Positions 26,097 through 35,745 of a DNA stretch of 64,000 nucleotides are shown here, one piece after another. The position numbers and the translations under genes were made by a program. Positions within the stretch are counted from its first letter, which is position 1. Each line of letters starts with the position of its first letter. The stretch comes from Clostridiales bacterium (GTDB lineage: Bacteria; Bacillota; Clostridia; Lachnospirales; Lachnospiraceae), in NCBI GenBank assembly GCA_012839295.1, contig DUNO01000066.1, positions 62,001 to 126,000 on the forward strand, in the 5' to 3' direction. The notes under the pieces were generated by a model. The model did no database searches. It saw nothing but the letters and a program-made list of their open reading frames with translations, and had not been told where the DNA came from.

Positions 26097-26102
26097 TCTT
26101 TA

Positions 26103-26131
26103 ACTATAATCACCGCTACTTATTTTGTCAA
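26103..26131 (-). promoter_or_regulatory. Promoter of the leuS T-box transcript
   Basis: On the minus strand TTGACA and TATAGT are separated by 17 bases, placing the transcript start near 26096. Confidence 0.85.
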
Positions 26132-26247
26132 GGTATGATTTGTTTTTACCGGAAGATAAGTTTCTCGATAAATTTCCCGGCATTAGCATATTTGGTAATC
26201 CGCTATTCAGTCCTAAAAAATGACGGGCTTCCATCCGCCTCCTGCTG

Positions 26248-26565
26248 TTACCGAATTAACCAACTATAATCCTGCCTACAATCAAGGATATAATCAACCT
26301 CCACGGTATCGTCCTTAATTTGATAAAGAACCAGATACCATTTTTCAATAAACATCTTATGATATTTGTTTGGGGGGATATACATTTCCTCAAAAAAGGG
26401 AAAGCGCTGCGGCATACTGGACAGGGAACGCAACGCATCAATTATTTGTTTCTTTTTCTTTTCCGCAGTTTCCTTGTTGACCTGAGCCATAAAGCGGATA
26501 TGCATTCCCAACATCTGCTTTGCCCGGTCTGACACAATTATCTTATATCTCTTATTCTCAGTCAT
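26248..26565 (-). CDS. RelE/ParE-superfamily toxin
   Basis: 105 residues of the plasmid-stabilisation/RelE-ParE fold: YKIIVSDRAKQMLGMHIRFM start, a long helix (ETAEKKKKQIIDALRSL), then RFPFFEE and the beta-rich YHKMFIEKWYLVLYQIKDDTVEVDYILDCRQDY end. Such toxins are mRNA interferases or gyrase poisons; the sequence alone does not say which. Encoded 3 bases after its antitoxin. Intact. Confidence 0.88.
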   Translation of the reverse strand: MTENKRYKIIVSDRAKQMLGMHIRFMAQVNKETAEKKKKQIIDALRSLSSMPQRFPFFEEMYIPPNKYHKMFIEKWYLVLYQIKDDTVEVDYILDCRQDYSWLIR

Positions 26566-27856: not shown

Positions 27857-30724
27857 TTACTTTACAGTAACATGTAGGTTTTTAAGTATTGAAGGATCAA
27901 TTGGTTTGCCAGAAGGATCCTTGGCCAGCGCATCAGCATCCTGTGCTGTAGACAAGCTGTCAAAGGACAATGTGACTATGGAGGAAGTACTAACTTTTGA
28001 AAAATCAATACTTTCTAGACAACCTGCTTCAAATACCCGATTGTTATAACCATTGTAGACAGCCTCTCCCCTTAGTCGGTAAGAAATTCCGTCAATGGTT
28101 AAAACATACTGGCATCCCTGTCTTAAATAATAATCTTCGTAGATATCTCCGCTTATCTCCAGTGACAGGATCTTCTGAGCTAAATCCAACCCAACGCCAC
28201 TTACTATAAACCCGCTATAAGGAGTAGCTGATACAGTCTCACTAAAGCTGACATATTGCTTATCCACAACATCATATAAATCCTTACCACCATTTGGAGA
28301 TAAAGTAATAGTGTAGCTGGAAGCCTTTCCTGTGGCACCAGCAGCATAGACAGATTGCTCGCTGTAATCAGTTGAATATCTGACAGGAACGTAATCCCAT
28401 TCACCAAGCGGCTGTCCGTCAGCATCTATCCGAATAGAATAGTCAAAGTCTGCAAATCGTGGTGAAAGGTGCAATGTCAGGTATTTACCATCCTCTGATA
28501 CGAACAGCTTATCAATCTTGGGGGCCGCATCTTGGATGAGCTTATTAAAATAAGAGAAATCCCCGGGTTGTTGACGGGATAACGTAAAGCTTTCCATACG
28601 ATTCGGTATGTTGGCAATATCAGTAATTCCACCTAACTCGGGCACATATGTAATTTGAAGAGCATCCAAATCGGATCCGGTTGGATAGACCAGGGTAAGG
28701 TCAATCCAGTCAGAATAGGGAACATAATAGTCTTTGTCGTTCTTGTGGAGGTTTACCGCCGTAATACTGGATCCGGTAACGCCGCTTACCGTAAAGGCAT
28801 TGCCACTCACAGTTTTTGCCGTGTCAAGAACTTCAGAGGTAATGATCCGGACGGTACGGGTACTATTTTCACCTTCCACAACAGGTTCAGACCAAAATGC
28901 ATCATAAACAGACGGCGCAACATTATCACCAAAACTTGATCCGGTCTCCTTTGAAAATGCAATCCTTGTAGGCACGGCAGAAGTCTCTACGGAAGATTTA
29001 ACAACAAAATAGATCTTCATACCTTCCTGCCCATTATAATACATTGATTCTGTAACCACCTTTTCCTCAGAACCTGTAAGTGTGACAACGCCCGACCTAG
29101 AGGCCCAAATTATATCGTGATGTCTGGAGCCATCCGGATCTATAGTGTCAATGCCGAGATGTCCATGTATTACTGATTCGGAAGATGCATCACTGGAAGT
29201 GTTATCAGAAGTTATCACATAATAAACCTTCACAGGAGAAGACGGAGATGCAATTCCATCCTTTAACTTGATTCTCAGCATAACATTGCGTTGGGAACCA
29301 GGGTTATTATCAACGTCTTTTGCTAATTCAACGATTGGATAGTCGGCTGCAAAGCGAGCATCTGTACGATAGGTTGTCTGCCCATCATCAGTGCCTGAGC
29401 CATTATCATTACCTGAGCCATTATCATTACCTGAGCCATTATCATTACCTGAGCCATTATCACCCGGGTCACCGTTACCTGAACCTCCGTTACTTGAACC
29501 CCCGCTGCCTGAGCCTGTGTTTGCATTGCCACCGGAACCTGAGCCTGTATTGGAAGTATTTCCTTTGCCGGTCGTTGCACCAGTAACTGTATCAACCCTG
29601 CCTTCACCTGAGATCACCGTATCCTGCGCTGCACTGTTGACAGACTTAATGGAAGCTTTACCCGCAACATCAATGGATAATCCTTTGGCTGATTCTTTAG
29701 CCGTTACGCTAGAGATGGAGCCGGTATCTGCTACCTTAATAGAGGAACCAGCGGCAGATGTGGCAATATCCTTAACAGTACCGCTAACCTCCAGCCTAGC
29801 ATTAGAAGCAGTAGATTTTAATTCAACCGTATCAACCACACTATCTTTTGATACAGAAAAGCTGGTATTCTCGCCTAATAAAGTGACATTGGTGATTGTT
29901 GCGTTGTTCGTCGACACATGGATATCATTCCCGACAACATTGACAGAACCGATGGGACCGTATAAGATGACATCATCACAGCCGTCATTAATGTATATAA
30001 GCCGTACATTTGCGTCATTAGACACCTTGATACTGACCACATTATTGACCTGGATGATCTCCATAGTTGAAATATCGGAAGTTCCCAGGATTTTAACGGA
30101 ATTTTCGCCTCCGCCGCGAACGATTAATTTTCCGGTTACTGTGACATTTTCTAAAATGGCTTCTTTGTCTGCAACACCGTCACCGATCACAAGATTACCA
30201 TTTACTGTGACGTTCTTTAGGGTTAGATCAGGCTTATTAAGCATGACATTTCCTTTATAGACCTTGTCACTTACACTTTTTGTGATTACAGTAGGTATCA
30301 CTTTAGAGATGTAGGCATTGAAGCTTTTCGGTGTTAATGTGGCATAGGGCTCATATGTTCCAAGAACCTCAAGCCGTCTGGTCTTTAATATTCTGGATAA
30401 GATCGTTGCCACAAAGTTATAATCTGCTTTTGCCGAAGCCTTTGCTAACTCATGCTTTTTATTTGGGATGAGATAGCCTGCATTGTAAGCTATCGACATT
30501 GTAGAATAATACGGATTACTCTTCTTATAATTTACAATGTTTTTCATCTCACTGGATTCCTTGGTTGCCCCAATGAGTGTGTTTACCGCCTTGCAAACCT
30601 CGCCGCGTGTTACTGTAACAGGCTTTTTTGAAGAACCTGTTGCTGCCTGTACCGGTGACAGCATACCCAACACCATGCTGACTGCAAGTACAAAGCCAAA
30701 TAGCCTTTTTACTGCTCTGTTCAT
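27857..30724 (-). CDS. Large secreted surface protein: SLH-like domain, beta-helix, repeat linker
   Basis: 955 residues. Residues 1-28 are a Sec signal peptide (LFGFVLAVSMVLGMLSPVQAA). Residues ~35-115 look like degenerate S-layer-homology sequence (VTRGEVCKAVNTLIG; YYSTMSIAYNAGYLIPN), suggesting attachment to secondary wall polymers. Residues ~160-400 are a parallel beta-helix-like string of short strands (TLKNVTVNGNLVIGDG, ILENVTVTGKLIVRGGG). A Gly/Ser/Asn/Asp linker with NGSGND repeats follows, then a ~500-residue C-terminal region of beta domains. No LPXTG. It is divergent from the LytTR regulator across a region with LytTR-type boxes. Function unknown. Confidence 0.88.
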   Translation of the reverse strand: MNRAVKRLFGFVLAVSMVLGMLSPVQAATGSSKKPVTVTRGEVCKAVNTLIGATKESSEMKNIVNYKKSNPYYSTMSIAYNAGYLIPNKKHELAKASAKADYNFVATILSRILKTRRLEVLGTYEPYATLTPKSFNAYISKVIPTVITKSVSDKVYKGNVMLNKPDLTLKNVTVNGNLVIGDGVADKEAILENVTVTGKLIVRGGGENSVKILGTSDISTMEIIQVNNVVSIKVSNDANVRLIYINDGCDDVILYGPIGSVNVVGNDIHVSTNNATITNVTLLGENTSFSVSKDSVVDTVELKSTASNARLEVSGTVKDIATSAAGSSIKVADTGSISSVTAKESAKGLSIDVAGKASIKSVNSAAQDTVISGEGRVDTVTGATTGKGNTSNTGSGSGGNANTGSGSGGSSNGGSGNGDPGDNGSGNDNGSGNDNGSGNDNGSGTDDGQTTYRTDARFAADYPIVELAKDVDNNPGSQRNVMLRIKLKDGIASPSSPVKVYYVITSDNTSSDASSESVIHGHLGIDTIDPDGSRHHDIIWASRSGVVTLTGSEEKVVTESMYYNGQEGMKIYFVVKSSVETSAVPTRIAFSKETGSSFGDNVAPSVYDAFWSEPVVEGENSTRTVRIITSEVLDTAKTVSGNAFTVSGVTGSSITAVNLHKNDKDYYVPYSDWIDLTLVYPTGSDLDALQITYVPELGGITDIANIPNRMESFTLSRQQPGDFSYFNKLIQDAAPKIDKLFVSEDGKYLTLHLSPRFADFDYSIRIDADGQPLGEWDYVPVRYSTDYSEQSVYAAGATGKASSYTITLSPNGGKDLYDVVDKQYVSFSETVSATPYSGFIVSGVGLDLAQKILSLEISGDIYEDYYLRQGCQYVLTIDGISYRLRGEAVYNGYNNRVFEAGCLESIDFSKVSTSSIVTLSFDSLSTAQDADALAKDPSGKPIDPSILKNLHVTVK
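29394..29465 (-). repeat. 18-bp coding tandem repeat in the linker
   Basis: Four head-to-tail copies of CCTGAGCCATTATCATTA (plus strand), the last partial, encoding the NGSGND hexamer on the minus strand. The antisense frame stays open and gives the spurious 289-residue track ORF. Confidence 0.9.
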
Positions 30725-30937: not shown

Positions 30938-30971
30938 AGTTATGACATTAAAATGATGAGTTATGACATTA
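30938..30971 (+). promoter_or_regulatory. LytTR-type direct repeat between surface protein and regulator
   Basis: AGTTATGACATTA occurs twice at exactly 21-base spacing. AgrA/LytTR regulators bind direct repeats of about 9 bases with ~21-base period, so this is a good candidate site. It lies 70 bases before the response regulator start and could act on it and on the divergent surface-protein gene. The remainder of 30725-31040 shows no gene. Confidence 0.65.
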
Positions 30972-31040: not shown

Positions 31041-31751
31041 ATGAGAATTGGAATTTGCGATGACAACGAACACTATTTAAAGAAACTAACCCTTATGGTA
31101 GATGATATGACCGCAGACTATGAAGATAGATCGATAGAACCAGTGAGTCCGGATAAATTATTGGATGAAATTAAGAACAGATCTTTTTCTTATGATGTCT
31201 TTATTACTGATATTGATTTAGGTAATTATACCGGAATTGAGCTTGTAAAGGAAATTAACGACATAAGCTCCTCCTGCATTATTATCTTTATAAGCAACCA
31301 CATCAATTTTGCAACCCAAGTCTATGACGTACGCCATATTTATTTCGTCTTAAAATCCGAGGCGGAAGTACGCCTTGCTAAGGCATTGGAGAAAGCCTTC
31401 TCAATATACCAGGAACAAAGAAATTCATTCCTTGCGATAAGCTATCAAAATAAAAATCACCGAATAGCTCTGGCAGATATTACTTACATAGAAGCATTTG
31501 GACGGTATTTATACATTCATACCAAAGAGGAAACATACACATGCATTAAAACCCTGAGAGACATTTCTATGGAGCTCAGCAGAGTTTTTGTAAAATGTCA
31601 TAAAAGCTTTATCATAAATATGGATTATGTACGCTCTAATGACCGCGGTAATTGTTTATTATCATCCGGGGAAATTATCCCTATCAGCACCACTTATAAC
31701 AAAGCTTTCCAAGATTCTTTTCGTCAATATATTTTCGGCCGGTTGACATAA
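31041..31751 (+). CDS. LytTR-family response regulator (AgrA-like)
   Basis: 236 residues. Receiver domain 1-120 with acidic pocket (ICDDNEHY) and phospho-acceptor Asp in VFITDIDLGNYTGIELV near residue 57; the conserved Lys is present in YFVLKSEAE. LytTR DNA-binding domain ~135-232 (DITYIEAFGRYLYIHTKEETYTC; FVKCHKSFIINMDYVRS). Start follows GAGAGGAC. The gene faces two AgrC-like kinase genes on the other strand. Likely recognises the 21-bp-period repeat upstream of itself. Confidence 0.94.
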   Translation: MRIGICDDNEHYLKKLTLMVDDMTADYEDRSIEPVSPDKLLDEIKNRSFSYDVFITDIDLGNYTGIELVKEINDISSSCIIIFISNHINFATQVYDVRHIYFVLKSEAEVRLAKALEKAFSIYQEQRNSFLAISYQNKNHRIALADITYIEAFGRYLYIHTKEETYTCIKTLRDISMELSRVFVKCHKSFIINMDYVRSNDRGNCLLSSGEIIPISTTYNKAFQDSFRQYIFGRLT

Positions 31752-31767
31752 TGTCGGCCAACATTAT
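31746..31767. terminator. Imperfect palindrome between convergent regulator and peptide genes
   Basis: CATAATGTCGGCCAACATTATG is a near-perfect palindrome spanning both stop codons. It may end transcription on both strands, though no T-run is present. Confidence 0.35.
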
Positions 31768-31910
31768 GCCAGTTTAAATGCGTTTATGTATACGGAGATG
31801 AGCGTTAAGCAACAGACGCTTGGTGTCATAATCCAATAGATTACATCCATTCCTTTCATTACAAAAGTGCTAAGCCGTTTATTAGCAAGAATTTTAACAT
31901 CAAATTCCAT
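31764..31910 (-). CDS. 48-residue hydrophobic peptide gene coupled to kinase
   Basis: Not in the ORF track because it is short. An ATG at 31910 lies inside the last codons of the upstream kinase and is preceded by GAGGTGAAAGAGT, a good ribosome site. The frame gives a basic N-terminus (MEFDVKILANKRLS), then a hydrophobic stretch VIYWIMTPSVCCLTLISVYI with a Cys pair, and a short tail. Size, position after an AgrC-like kinase and the Cys residues recall AgrD-type signal precursors, but no AgrB processing protease is nearby and no known family is recognised. A small membrane regulator of the kinase is an alternative. Confidence 0.6.
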   Translation of the reverse strand: MEFDVKILANKRLSTFVMKGMDVIYWIMTPSVCCLTLISVYINAFKLA

Positions 31911-33300
31911 ACTCTTTCACCTCATCTGAATCTATTTTCAGCATAACCAGGGATGAAAATGTATCTCCAAGGTCATTAAACTCCTTTTGCCCTTCATAGC
32001 GCTCTACCACTTCCTCAATTATCTTCAGACCATATCCATGAAGCTTTTTATTCTCCTTCCAGGTCATAAAACGCTTTTTTTCTGTTAATGCTTCTGCTCT
32101 ATCTTGTAATTTGCTATTAATTATTCTGACACTAAAAAAGTTTCCAATTGTTGCTGCCTTGATATCTATCCAATTTTCGGCATCCGTATTTCTGAGGCAC
32201 CCTTCAATTGCATTATCCAATAAATTTGAAAAAACACTCATTAAATCAATGTCACTGATAGAAACATGCTCCGGTAACTGTATATCGATATGACAGGAGA
32301 TATTCTTATTGATACAAATTTTTGCTTTTGAAATTAAAACAGCATTTATAATCTTATTACAGCAATAATACTCTCTTTTAATGCTGCTATACTCGTCCAT
32401 AACCGCCTTTGTATAGTCCTTTGCTTCTTGGCTCATCCCCATAACAATCAGCTGCTGGATTGACTTAATATGATTTTCAATTTCTTGATAGAGTTTGATT
32501 AATTCCTGCTCTTGCTGCTGATAAGAGAGGGAATTATTATACTGTAGTTCCTTTTGTTGTAAGAGCATATTATTTTCAATTCTTAATACCCTTTTTTCTG
32601 TTTGGTTAATTGCTGTGAATAATATCACCAAGGCAGCCATTACAAAGACAAGGATATTCTTGTAATTTGATATTCCTTTCATAGGATTATCATCTATAAA
32701 ATAATCCTTTTTACTAAACGCTACAAGTACTGCATAACAAAAATAAAACAAGTACCAGGTCTTTTTCGAAATTTTTGCAATCCATTTATATTTATGTAGT
32801 CTTTTTCCGATCGCAAGAAAAATGCATCCCCATAATATCCCGATTAATATTATTAATATGTACAACGGCATTGTCTTTCCATTGACCGGATATACTGTTA
32901 CACCATTAACCTTATCCCAAAAGGTAAAGTAATTAGTATAAAATAACTCTGGCAGAATGACCGTAAGAACTAATATCAACGGCCACCAATATTTTTTATA
33001 CCATAGACCTTCCGTATACCTCACTATGAATAATAAGAATAACAGTATTTCAATTACAATATTTATTTTCAATAATATATAAACCAAACCATTATTGGGT
33101 ATGATTCTTTCTCCGACCAGGATAAATGACAATGCATCTGTAAGGGGTATATATTGTGCATAAAAAAGCCCCCATAGATAAGCCTTCCTTTTCGCAATTT
33201 TCAGTGTAAAGCTATTACATATGATATAATATATCATGATAATCGGTACCATCATCTGTATGTAAACATTAATAAATTCGATCAGCAAAAGACTACTCAT
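31900..33300 (-). CDS. AgrC-like GHKL sensor kinase lacking the phospho-acceptor His
   Basis: The ATG at 33300 follows GGGAGATATT and gives 466 residues; the track start is 6 residues longer. About seven membrane segments fill residues 1-230, then a coiled linker and a GHKL domain. The N box (FSNLLDNAIEGC) and G box (KLHGYGLKIIEEVV) are intact, so ATP binding is likely. The H box reads LYQEIENH where the family has xxHDxxNH, so the phosphorylated His is replaced by Gln and the Asp by Glu. It probably cannot autophosphorylate in the usual way. Encoded 26 bases after its paralogue. Confidence 0.88.
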   Translation of the reverse strand: MSSLLLIEFINVYIQMMVPIIMIYYIICNSFTLKIAKRKAYLWGLFYAQYIPLTDALSFILVGERIIPNNGLVYILLKINIVIEILLFLLFIVRYTEGLWYKKYWWPLILVLTVILPELFYTNYFTFWDKVNGVTVYPVNGKTMPLYILIILIGILWGCIFLAIGKRLHKYKWIAKISKKTWYLFYFCYAVLVAFSKKDYFIDDNPMKGISNYKNILVFVMAALVILFTAINQTEKRVLRIENNMLLQQKELQYNNSLSYQQQEQELIKLYQEIENHIKSIQQLIVMGMSQEAKDYTKAVMDEYSSIKREYYCCNKIINAVLISKAKICINKNISCHIDIQLPEHVSISDIDLMSVFSNLLDNAIEGCLRNTDAENWIDIKAATIGNFFSVRIINSKLQDRAEALTEKKRFMTWKENKKLHGYGLKIIEEVVERYEGQKEFNDLGDTFSSLVMLKIDSDEVKEYGI

Positions 33301-33326
33301 AATATCTCCCATACTCATATGCTAAA

Positions 33327-34061
33327 TTATTGTTTAATCGGAAAACTTACGGTAATAAGCGTTTCTTCCTCATTCTCTTTCTGTTCCTTCTGTCCTTTAT
33401 ACTGCATCAGTATTTTTTCAACCGAAAGCAACTGATATTGTTGTGAAGCAAGTTCTTTCCACACAGAAAGAGAGTTCTTTTTTTCGATCAATATCTCCTT
33501 AGATTTACTGCTTGCTATATTTATGGCAAAGTAATTATCCGACGCGAAAGATTGAATTTTAATAAATTTTTCAGTACCCACGCTTGTTTGACATTCTTTT
33601 ATTACCATATCCAGTAAATCCGAAAATATAGTCATTAAGTCTATTTCATGAATAGATAGATTTTGGGGTATCTGTACATCCGCATGAAATATAATATCAT
33701 TTATTCCGCAAATATTCTTCTTTTGCAATAGCACCGAATTTATAATCCCAATGCTACAAAAATAATCTCTCTTGCTATTCAGATAAGAATCAATTATATT
33801 CGATATATAATCCTCAGCTATCTGTTTATCTCCATTCTCAATCAGTATCTGAATTGTACTGATATGATTTCCTATATCATGATACAACTTATGAATATCC
33901 TTTTCTTGCTGTTGCAAAGTAAGATAATACTCATATTGCAGTTCATTCTGCCTATTTAATATAATATTTTCCGCCCGCAGAATCCGTTTTTCTGATCGAT
34001 TAATAATAACAAAATAGACAGCTCCTATCATTATTATTGAGGCAGCGATTATATACCCCAT
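33327..34061 (-). CDS. Truncated AgrC-like protein with His box but no ATP site
   Basis: 244 residues with one membrane segment (IIAASIIMIGAVYFVII) followed by a coiled linker and GHKL-like domain clearly paralogous to the downstream kinase. The H box is intact (LYHDIGNH, His61). The N box reads FSDLLDMVIKEC, the essential Asn replaced by Met, and the G box reads QQYQL, so ATP binding should be lost. The multi-helix sensor domain is absent. The ATG follows GGGGAGGACACCAT and the frame is closed upstream, so this is the real start unless there was an old frameshift. Defects are the mirror image of its neighbour. Confidence 0.86.
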   Translation of the reverse strand: MGYIIAASIIMIGAVYFVIINRSEKRILRAENIILNRQNELQYEYYLTLQQQEKDIHKLYHDIGNHISTIQILIENGDKQIAEDYISNIIDSYLNSKRDYFCSIGIINSVLLQKKNICGINDIIFHADVQIPQNLSIHEIDLMTIFSDLLDMVIKECQTSVGTEKFIKIQSFASDNYFAINIASSKSKEILIEKKNSLSVWKELASQQYQLLSVEKILMQYKGQKEQKENEEETLITVSFPIKQ

Positions 34062-34341: not shown

Positions 34342-34489
34342 TTACCCTCTTTCAAGCTCAGAAAAAACAATCTCTAAAACTCATCCAGCAAATCGTCCGG
34401 TATTTTTTCAACAAAAGCATATTCCCTGCTTTCCAGGTCTACCACCTTTGTGTGAAATCCAGTTTGATAATATCTCCCTGCTTTACCAT
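34342..34489 (-). pseudogene. mazF-type toxin gene with internal deletion and frameshift
   Basis: The ATG overlaps the mazE stop (ATGGTAA), as in intact mazEF. The frame begins MVKQGDIIKLDF, a typical MazF N-terminus, then jumps to another frame with VVDLESREYAFVEKIPDDLLDE, a typical MazF C-terminus; about 70 central residues are lost. A further single-base deletion (GAGTTTTAG for GAGGTTTTAG) creates a stop, beyond which EIVFSELERG can still be read. The toxin is certainly non-functional. Confidence 0.82.
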
Positions 34490-34731
34490 ATTTCCTTACC
34501 TACAGGCTTTCCCCAATCTATTTCTCCAAAACCATAAGCCCCGCCGAAATCCTTGAAACGCTCCTGAATTGTCTTGTGCATCCTCTTATCCTGGGGTTTT
34601 CTAATAATGATACTGTCATTCTCAGCTATCACTTCGACGATGTCGCCATCCCTTAAATTTACGCTGTCTAAAAGAAATTTAGGGTGTCTCACCCCCTGCG
34701 AATTGCCCCATTTTACGATAGTGGTCTGCAT
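34483..34731 (-). CDS. MazE/AbrB-family antitoxin (orphan)
   Basis: The ATG at 34731 follows GGAGAGCAAACG and gives 82 residues; the track adds 33 hydrophobic residues from upstream without a start signal. SpoVT/AbrB-type fold: TIVKWGNSQGVRHPKFLLDSVNLRDGDIVEVIAENDSIIIRKP, then an acidic toxin-binding tail. The toxin gene next to it is broken, so this antitoxin is an orphan that may still regulate its own promoter. Confidence 0.88.
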   Translation of the reverse strand: MQTTIVKWGNSQGVRHPKFLLDSVNLRDGDIVEVIAENDSIIIRKPQDKRMHKTIQERFKDFGGAYGFGEIDWGKPVGKEIW

Positions 34732-34898
34732 CGTTTGCTCTCCTTTCCTGTAGTATATACTATAATACAAAAGAATTACAACAATAATTATTAACGAATA
34801 ATTCCTTGACGAATTAGAAAGAAGGCACAAAAAATAAATCTTAGAAATATAATTCTCCTATACAGAAATTCATGATACACTGTACTATCAATCCCCGC

Positions 34899-35543
34899 TC
34901 AATACCCAGCTACCTTCCAATCCTGTGCCAACTCCCTGATAAAATTATAATTCAATTCGGAAATGGTTGTCCCCGTAATAAATTCCTCAACATACACATC
35001 CAAATCCGTAAAATCGAACAGGTCATCTGCCTGGTAAACCTTTTTAACATTTAAAAATGCATTTTGGAACATTTTTTTGCTCTCATTGATTTTAGATTCA
35101 GATAATAAAATATACCCCAGCGCCTCATAAGGATAAACAAATTCATTACATAGCATAATCGATTTTTCCAAGCATATCTTCTGATTCTCTATATCTTCCT
35201 TAACTCGATAATATAAAGACTGGAGATAATAAATAATTGCCTGTTTATTCTTATTACCTGTTTTAGCCTTACTTAACCGTTCAAACAACTCATCATCGAT
35301 AAAACGGTTATGCCATTTAATTCCGCTTTCTAATATTAATGCATCCAAATTATTTCTTGATAATTTATATATTTCATCTACACATTTTAACGCGCCAATA
35401 TAATCTTTAAGCGGATATTGTAGCTCTGCCAGGCTAAGCTTAAACCAAAGCTGGATATCTTCCGGCCTATGTTCCAATTGTTCCTTTATGATCTTTTCAG
35501 CTTCACATATGTCAAAATTCTTTATTGCACGCATTAAATCCAT
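34899..35543 (-). CDS. TPR-like helical repeat protein
   Basis: The ATG at 35543 follows GGGAGAAAATT and gives 214 residues; the 44 extra residues in the track have no start signal. The protein is all helical with tetratricopeptide-like pairs: EAEKIIKEQLEHRPEDIQLWFKLSLAEL, DYIGALKCVDEIYKLSRNNLDALI, YPYEALGYILLSESKINESKKMFQNAF. Cytoplasmic; no enzymatic motif. A LytTR-type box lies in its upstream region, so it may belong to the regulon of the nearby response regulator. Such proteins can also act as peptide-binding regulators or immunity proteins. Confidence 0.75.
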   Translation of the reverse strand: MDLMRAIKNFDICEAEKIIKEQLEHRPEDIQLWFKLSLAELQYPLKDYIGALKCVDEIYKLSRNNLDALILESGIKWHNRFIDDELFERLSKAKTGNKNKQAIIYYLQSLYYRVKEDIENQKICLEKSIMLCNEFVYPYEALGYILLSESKINESKKMFQNAFLNVKKVYQADDLFDFTDLDVYVEEFITGTTISELNYNFIRELAQDWKVAGY

Positions 35544-35710
35544 AATTTTCTCCCTTCTGCTAGTGATATTACTGCATTTTCCCTTCTCCCAATCAAGATT
35601 TCCCATAAATATCTTTATACCAAACAGGGTATGCTTCGCGGAGTAACACTGTATAATTTTAGCCTCTAGTCCCAATTAGGTTATAACATTCTTTTCCATA
35701 AAAAAACTTC

Positions 35711-35745
35711 CGATGTCATAACTTGCAGCTTTAATGTATTATTCG
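35711..35745 (-). promoter_or_regulatory. LytTR-type box upstream of the TPR gene
   Basis: On the minus strand AAGTTATGACATC repeats the sequence found before the response regulator, and a weaker half-site AATAATACATTA lies exactly 21 bases upstream of it. The spacing equals that of 30938-30971. Confidence 0.5.

Follow-up and report, generated by a model that had tools for sequence, protein, structure and literature searches.

Two neighbouring GHKL kinase genes, here called kin1 and kin2, have lost complementary parts of their active sites and, as judged from the residues kept and lost, look like a split histidine kinase, and the convergent gene of a LytTR-type response regulator is preceded by a direct repeat that is predicted to be its operator. 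At the 3' end of kin1 lies an overlapping open reading frame (ORF) of 48 codons, for which a real new small gene, coupled to kin1 and encoding a membrane partner of the split kinase, is the best explanation that we can offer, although a tentative one. The complementary degeneracy of the kinases, taken together with the operator, is a more interesting result than the peptide. All coordinates refer to the window, i.e., the whole stretch of 64,000 nucleotides that was analysed.

Two Kinases With Complementary Active Sites

The kinase genes are arranged as follows:

33327..34061, minus strand: kin2, a GHKL paralogue of 244 aa with one helix (PF14501, E 2.6e-6)
31900..33318, minus strand: kin1, a membrane GHKL sensor kinase of 472 aa (PF14501, E 2.3e-17)

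The kin2 gene lies 8 nt ahead of kin1 and has a ribosome site of its own (GGGGAGG), and for kin1 the third Met at 33300, standing by eye behind GGGAGA, is the more likely start. In an alignment, the H-box of kin1 reads KLYQEIENH where relatives have KLYHDIGNH (HDIGN to QEIEN; H38Q/D39E/G41E in domain numbering), so that the phospho-accepting His is gone; the ATP site is kept, with the N-box LLDNAIE and the G-box HGYGL intact. The reverse is found in kin2, in which the H-box KLYHDIGNH is retained, the N-box is altered from SNLLDNAIE to SDLLDMVIK and the G-box is lost (HGYGL to QQYQL), corresponding to N125D/N129M/A130V/H184Q/G185Q/G187Q in domain numbering. A structure model of kin2 is of low confidence and leaves the glycine-box loop disordered.

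For a comparison over the whole domains, columns that are invariant in six relatives were used, 39 in the His domain and 46 in the ATP domain. Kin2 is altered in 9 of the former and 26 of the latter (p 0.002), kin1 in 13 and 8, respectively (p 0.13 when taken alone), and the crossed table of kin1/kin2 against His/ATP domain yields p 0.011, a pattern of substitutions that would not be expected from uniform decay. The phospho-accepting His and the ATP-binding residues are found on separate proteins encoded by adjacent genes, which is the arrangement expected of a split kinase. No other split pair of this kind was found in the order at the cut-off used.

The Regulator and Its Predicted Operator

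Convergent with the kinase operon stands the regulator gene, with orthologues in the genomes G002, G027, and G031:

31041..31751, plus strand: LytTR-type response regulator (PF04397, E 3.4e-18; PF00072, E 5e-11)
30938..30968, plus strand: LytTR-type operator AGTTATGACA-N11-AGTTATGACA, a perfect direct repeat 72 nt 5' of the regulator start

The operator is located in the gap between the regulator and the divergent gene of a 955-aa secreted protein, and no second copy occurs in the window or elsewhere in the genome. Regulators of this type are expected to combine a LytTR domain with paired direct repeats of 9–11 bp about two turns apart, and here the domain goes with a repeat that has a period of 21 bp. 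The consensus AGTTATKACA-N11-AGTTATKACA occurs in four of 34 genus genomes, and these are exactly the four holding the regulator, a co-occurrence expected in 1 of 46,376 cases by chance if the genomes were independent, which related genomes are not. In G002 and at two further loci of relatives, L041 and L043, the same motif is found 5' of the kinase gene; in G027 it precedes a 260-aa gene that itself lies upstream of the kinase, and in G031 it precedes the homologue of that gene. Very probably, as far as motif and gene content can tell, the repeat is the dedicated operator of this regulator, which would make up a tiny self-regulating regulon.

The divergent 955-aa protein (27857-30724, minus strand) has a signal-peptide-like start and a Ser/Gly/Asn/Asp repeat linker, and no Pfam domain above cut-off was found in it. 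Ahead of the kinase operon stands a repeat-like ORF of 258 aa (34899-35675), and upstream of this ORF a single half-site AGTTATGACA lies at 35713-35722 (minus strand); in G027 and G031 a full operator and the 260-aa gene occupy a comparable place. In G031, the motif was also found (L104:1501-1531, contig G031:C17) 222 nt 5' of a secreted GH10 xylanase gene, so that in relatives the output may include extracellular enzymes.

A 48-Codon Reading Frame at the End of kin1

The space between kin1 and the regulator holds three features:

31918..31923, minus strand: ribosome-binding site GAGGTG, within the last kin1 codons and 7 nt upstream of the peptide ATG
31764..31910, minus strand: ORF of 48 aa, candidate small membrane protein (ATG at 31910, TAA at 31766-31764)
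31744..31771, no strand assigned: 12-bp hairpin with loop GGCC, holding the stop codons of the peptide ORF and of the regulator

An earlier note on this DNA had described the frame, its ribosome site, its overlap with the kinase gene, the basic N-terminus and a hydrophobic segment with Cys-Cys, and in the sequence all of these are as described; the complementary degeneracy of the kinases it had left unmentioned. The first 11 nt of the ORF overlap the end of the kinase gene; the frame reads across the kinase stop and encodes the 48 residues MEFDVKILANKRLSTFVMKGMDVIYWIMTPSVCCLTLISVYINAFKLA. Four basic residues (K6, K11, R12, and K19) occur among the first 19, residues 24–42 are hydrophobic with a mean Kyte-Doolittle value of 1.73 over 19 residues, and Cys33-Cys34 lies inside this segment, the helix comprising about residues 22–45. 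AlphaFold returns one helix, 2–47, with a pLDDT of 89, which for a single sequence of a short hydrophobic peptide is weak evidence. The product is predicted to be a small single-pass membrane protein with the N-terminus in, with which the N-terminal positive charges agree. Beyond its reading frame, everything said here of the peptide is what we infer. The frame extends right to the hairpin, as expected for the last gene of the kinase operon; the hairpin is possibly a two-way terminator without a T-run, and its folding is not exceptional (z -0.97 vs. shuffles). A search for classic terminators found none, and a search of the region for structured RNA (Rfam) yielded just one chance microRNA match and no antitoxin RNA.

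When the ATG was fixed and the rest was dinucleotide-shuffled, 2.8% of the sequences stayed open, 8% of which were equally hydrophobic. A codon score trained on the codon usage of the window's genes ranks the ORF higher than 89% of non-gene ORFs of comparable size and, among real gene segments, at the 17.5th percentile, the synonymous part of the score alone giving no discrimination. In 420 kb of this genome (362 genes), only five ATG ORFs of 30–75 aa were counted that begin behind a strong ribosome site where a gene ends, with no other gene allowed on top of the ORF. One of them is the peptide ORF, and the others are ribosomal protein L30 and a helix-turn-helix protein (by eye), a phage-type-regulator-like ORF and one that looks non-coding (26100-26234). 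Ribosome site, length and codon score give moderate support for a real peptide gene, and we judge, without having computed it, that the ORF probably is one, by roughly two chances to one.

The Peptide in Other Genomes

Homologues of the peptide were found neither in GTDB contigs, in 60 near genomes and in 392 genomes of the order nor in viral contigs, plasmids, and phages; a lone order-level match (E 4e-4) crosses a stop codon, and in a search of 392 genomes such a match is to be expected by chance. Pfam and NCBIfam profiles gave no family match. With no homologue found, selection on the peptide cannot be shown. The possibility that it is a duplicated kinase fragment was dismissed, as it has no similarity to the kinase. 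In the loci of other GHKL kinases of this genome that were inspected, a small peptide 3' of the kinase was not seen.

Relatives of kin1 exist in Herbinix and Anaerocolumna. In five of them, the kinase forms a convergent pair with the regulator (L041, L042 in G002, L043, L044 in G027, and L045 in G031), with gaps between the two genes of about 80, 48, 106, -17, and -4 nt in this order, and a peptide-like ORF is absent between the genes in all five; the system thus does not have the peptide as a conserved component, nor is the peptide generally needed for such systems. In a sixth relative (G032), an orphan kinase adjoins glyA and the genome has no regulator orthologue. The earlier note had stated that a frame broken in close relatives that keep the kinase would speak against its proposal. 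The five relatives do keep the pair without the frame, but they are different species with kinases only 37–47% identical, and breakage in close relatives is not thereby demonstrated; to the extent that gene content can tell, the outcome goes against a conserved role of the peptide. The frame is probably real but lineage-restricted, and it may have arisen recently.

Alternative Explanations

The explanation that ranks close behind the best one, and which we consider to have about one chance in three, holds that kin1 and the regulator are separated by a non-coding spacer or by 3' UTR sequence, in which 48 codons are open by luck, and that GAGGTG is merely kinase coding sequence (Asp-Glu-Val-Lys). 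The spacer is short or absent in relatives and has no ORF there, the peptide is without homologues, about 3% of shuffles are open and the window, with about 50 gene ends, offers several chances, 11% of non-gene ORFs match the codon score and a synonymous codon signal is absent, all of which a chance ORF would account for. It would account less readily for a good ribosome site at ideal spacing, for the hydrophobic segment and for a frame that occupies the spacer as far as the hairpin, and the other coupled small ORFs in the 420 kb mostly look real. Improbable, in our view, is a decay of the whole operon, with kin1 and kin2 as dying duplicates and the peptide as debris: active-site residues are lost in each kinase, kin2 lies on a long tree branch (1.94 vs. 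0.77 for kin1) and the pair is seen in this genome alone, but both kinase frames are intact and have ribosome sites, each kinase retains the half that is missing from the other, and the regulator and its operator are conserved and show no damage. That duplication and decay can mimic subfunctionalisation is a caveat on the split-kinase reading.

The earlier note had likened the peptide to autoinducer precursors or a new type of signal. A product that is exported, processed and sensed by kin1, AgrD-like or new, would suit a small, basic-hydrophobic and Cys-containing peptide beside a GHKL sensor and a LytTR regulator with an autoregulatory operator, a logic that agr systems share. However, the AgrD model TIGR04223 is silent on the peptide at E<=10 and matches the two AgrDs that this genome encodes (E 5e-9 and 2.5e-7), and the proposal of a signal finds no support in this result. 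The two AgrB genes (PF04647) are on contigs C72 and C6, the one on C72 together with its own AgrD and AgrC, and none is on C77, the contig of the peptide, as the earlier note had rightly said in finding no AgrB nearby. Unlike AgrD precursors, the peptide has no acidic C-terminal tail; its Cys-Cys lies within the hydrophobic segment, and relatives whose sensor is of this type lack it. We therefore hold a signal to be very improbable, and since each of the two kinases lacks the half that the other has kept, a candidate helper of a two-piece kinase is a better reading of the peptide than a signal between cells. A membrane-active, type I-like toxin unconnected with the kinases, to which size and the single hydrophobic helix might point, is scarcely credible given the translational coupling of the ORF to the kinase gene, and neither an Rfam antitoxin RNA in the region nor a match to a toxin family was found.

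Proposed Mechanism and Comparison With Known Systems

That the peptide serves the two kinases as a small membrane subunit, the other suggestion of the earlier note, is the best surviving reading and is possible, although the location of the ORF alone says nothing on binding between peptide and kinase. Starting from what can be read in the DNA itself, namely the ORF, its ribosome site, the complementary active-site loss and the conserved operator motif, the following chain may be proposed. The peptide ORF would be translated by coupling to kin1, which would place the product near kin1 in the membrane, where, as a single-pass protein with the N-terminus in, it would associate with the split GHKL kinase. 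A signal would act on kin1, the sensor and ATP-binding subunit without phospho-acceptor His, and in a heterodimer kin1 would phosphorylate the His of kin2, which has one membrane helix and a dead ATP site. From phosphorylated kin2 the phosphate would go to the LytTR regulator; the regulator would bind the repeat 5' of its own gene and thus regulate itself, and perhaps it also controls the divergent secreted protein. The effect of the peptide may be to stabilise the membrane complex of kin1 and kin2, or to tune it, as MgrB or SafA do with PhoQ. That all parts hold at once, i.e., a three-part membrane sensor composed of an AgrC-like kinase split by point loss and a newborn coupled 48-aa peptide that holds or gates the pair, we consider unlikely, at perhaps one chance in four.

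PhoQ is inhibited by MgrB, a single-pass protein of 47 aa, and SafA is another small single-pass regulator of this kinase (PMC8404706). The peptide resembles these proteins in its size, in a predicted single membrane helix with a basic N-terminus and a Trp in the helix, in two cysteines and in its link to a sensor kinase. It differs in that it has no family match, that its cysteines are part of the helix and do not lie outside the membrane, and that its gene is coupled to the kinase gene instead of being a separate member of a regulon; binding to the kinase is a proposal here. Split kinases are known mainly from chemotaxis proteins, with switch-like behaviour predicted, and for CheA3/CheA4 of Rhodobacter sphaeroides phosphorylation in trans is established (PMC3591291). 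As in that pair, phospho-accepting His and ATP-binding site are on two proteins, but CheA3/CheA4 is a chemotaxis kinase, whereas kin1/kin2 is AgrC-like, stands in the membrane and is paired with a LytTR regulator; in kin1 and kin2 the GHKL domain layout is still complete, the split being one of point loss. The Herbinix and Anaerocolumna loci L041–L045 share the homologous, convergent kinase and regulator and, in at least L041–L044, the operator motif, but they contain one intact kinase, with no short paralogue seen adjoining and no peptide ORF. If the proposed reading is true, a GHKL kinase of the membrane that complementary point loss has split, with relatives that are still whole, would show how such splits arise, and a peptide gene born at the 3' end of a kinase gene would be a test case for the emergence of small regulatory subunits. 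The operator would provide a simple reporter for the whole system.

Other Neighbours in the Window

A MazE-type antitoxin (PF04014) is encoded at 34483-34830 on the minus strand, with no obvious toxin gene directly adjoining. The 44-aa ORF at 26100-26234 (minus strand) stands behind AGGAGG just after a RelE-like ORF (26248-26565); its codon score is poor and resembles that of non-coding sequence, and it is possibly spurious.
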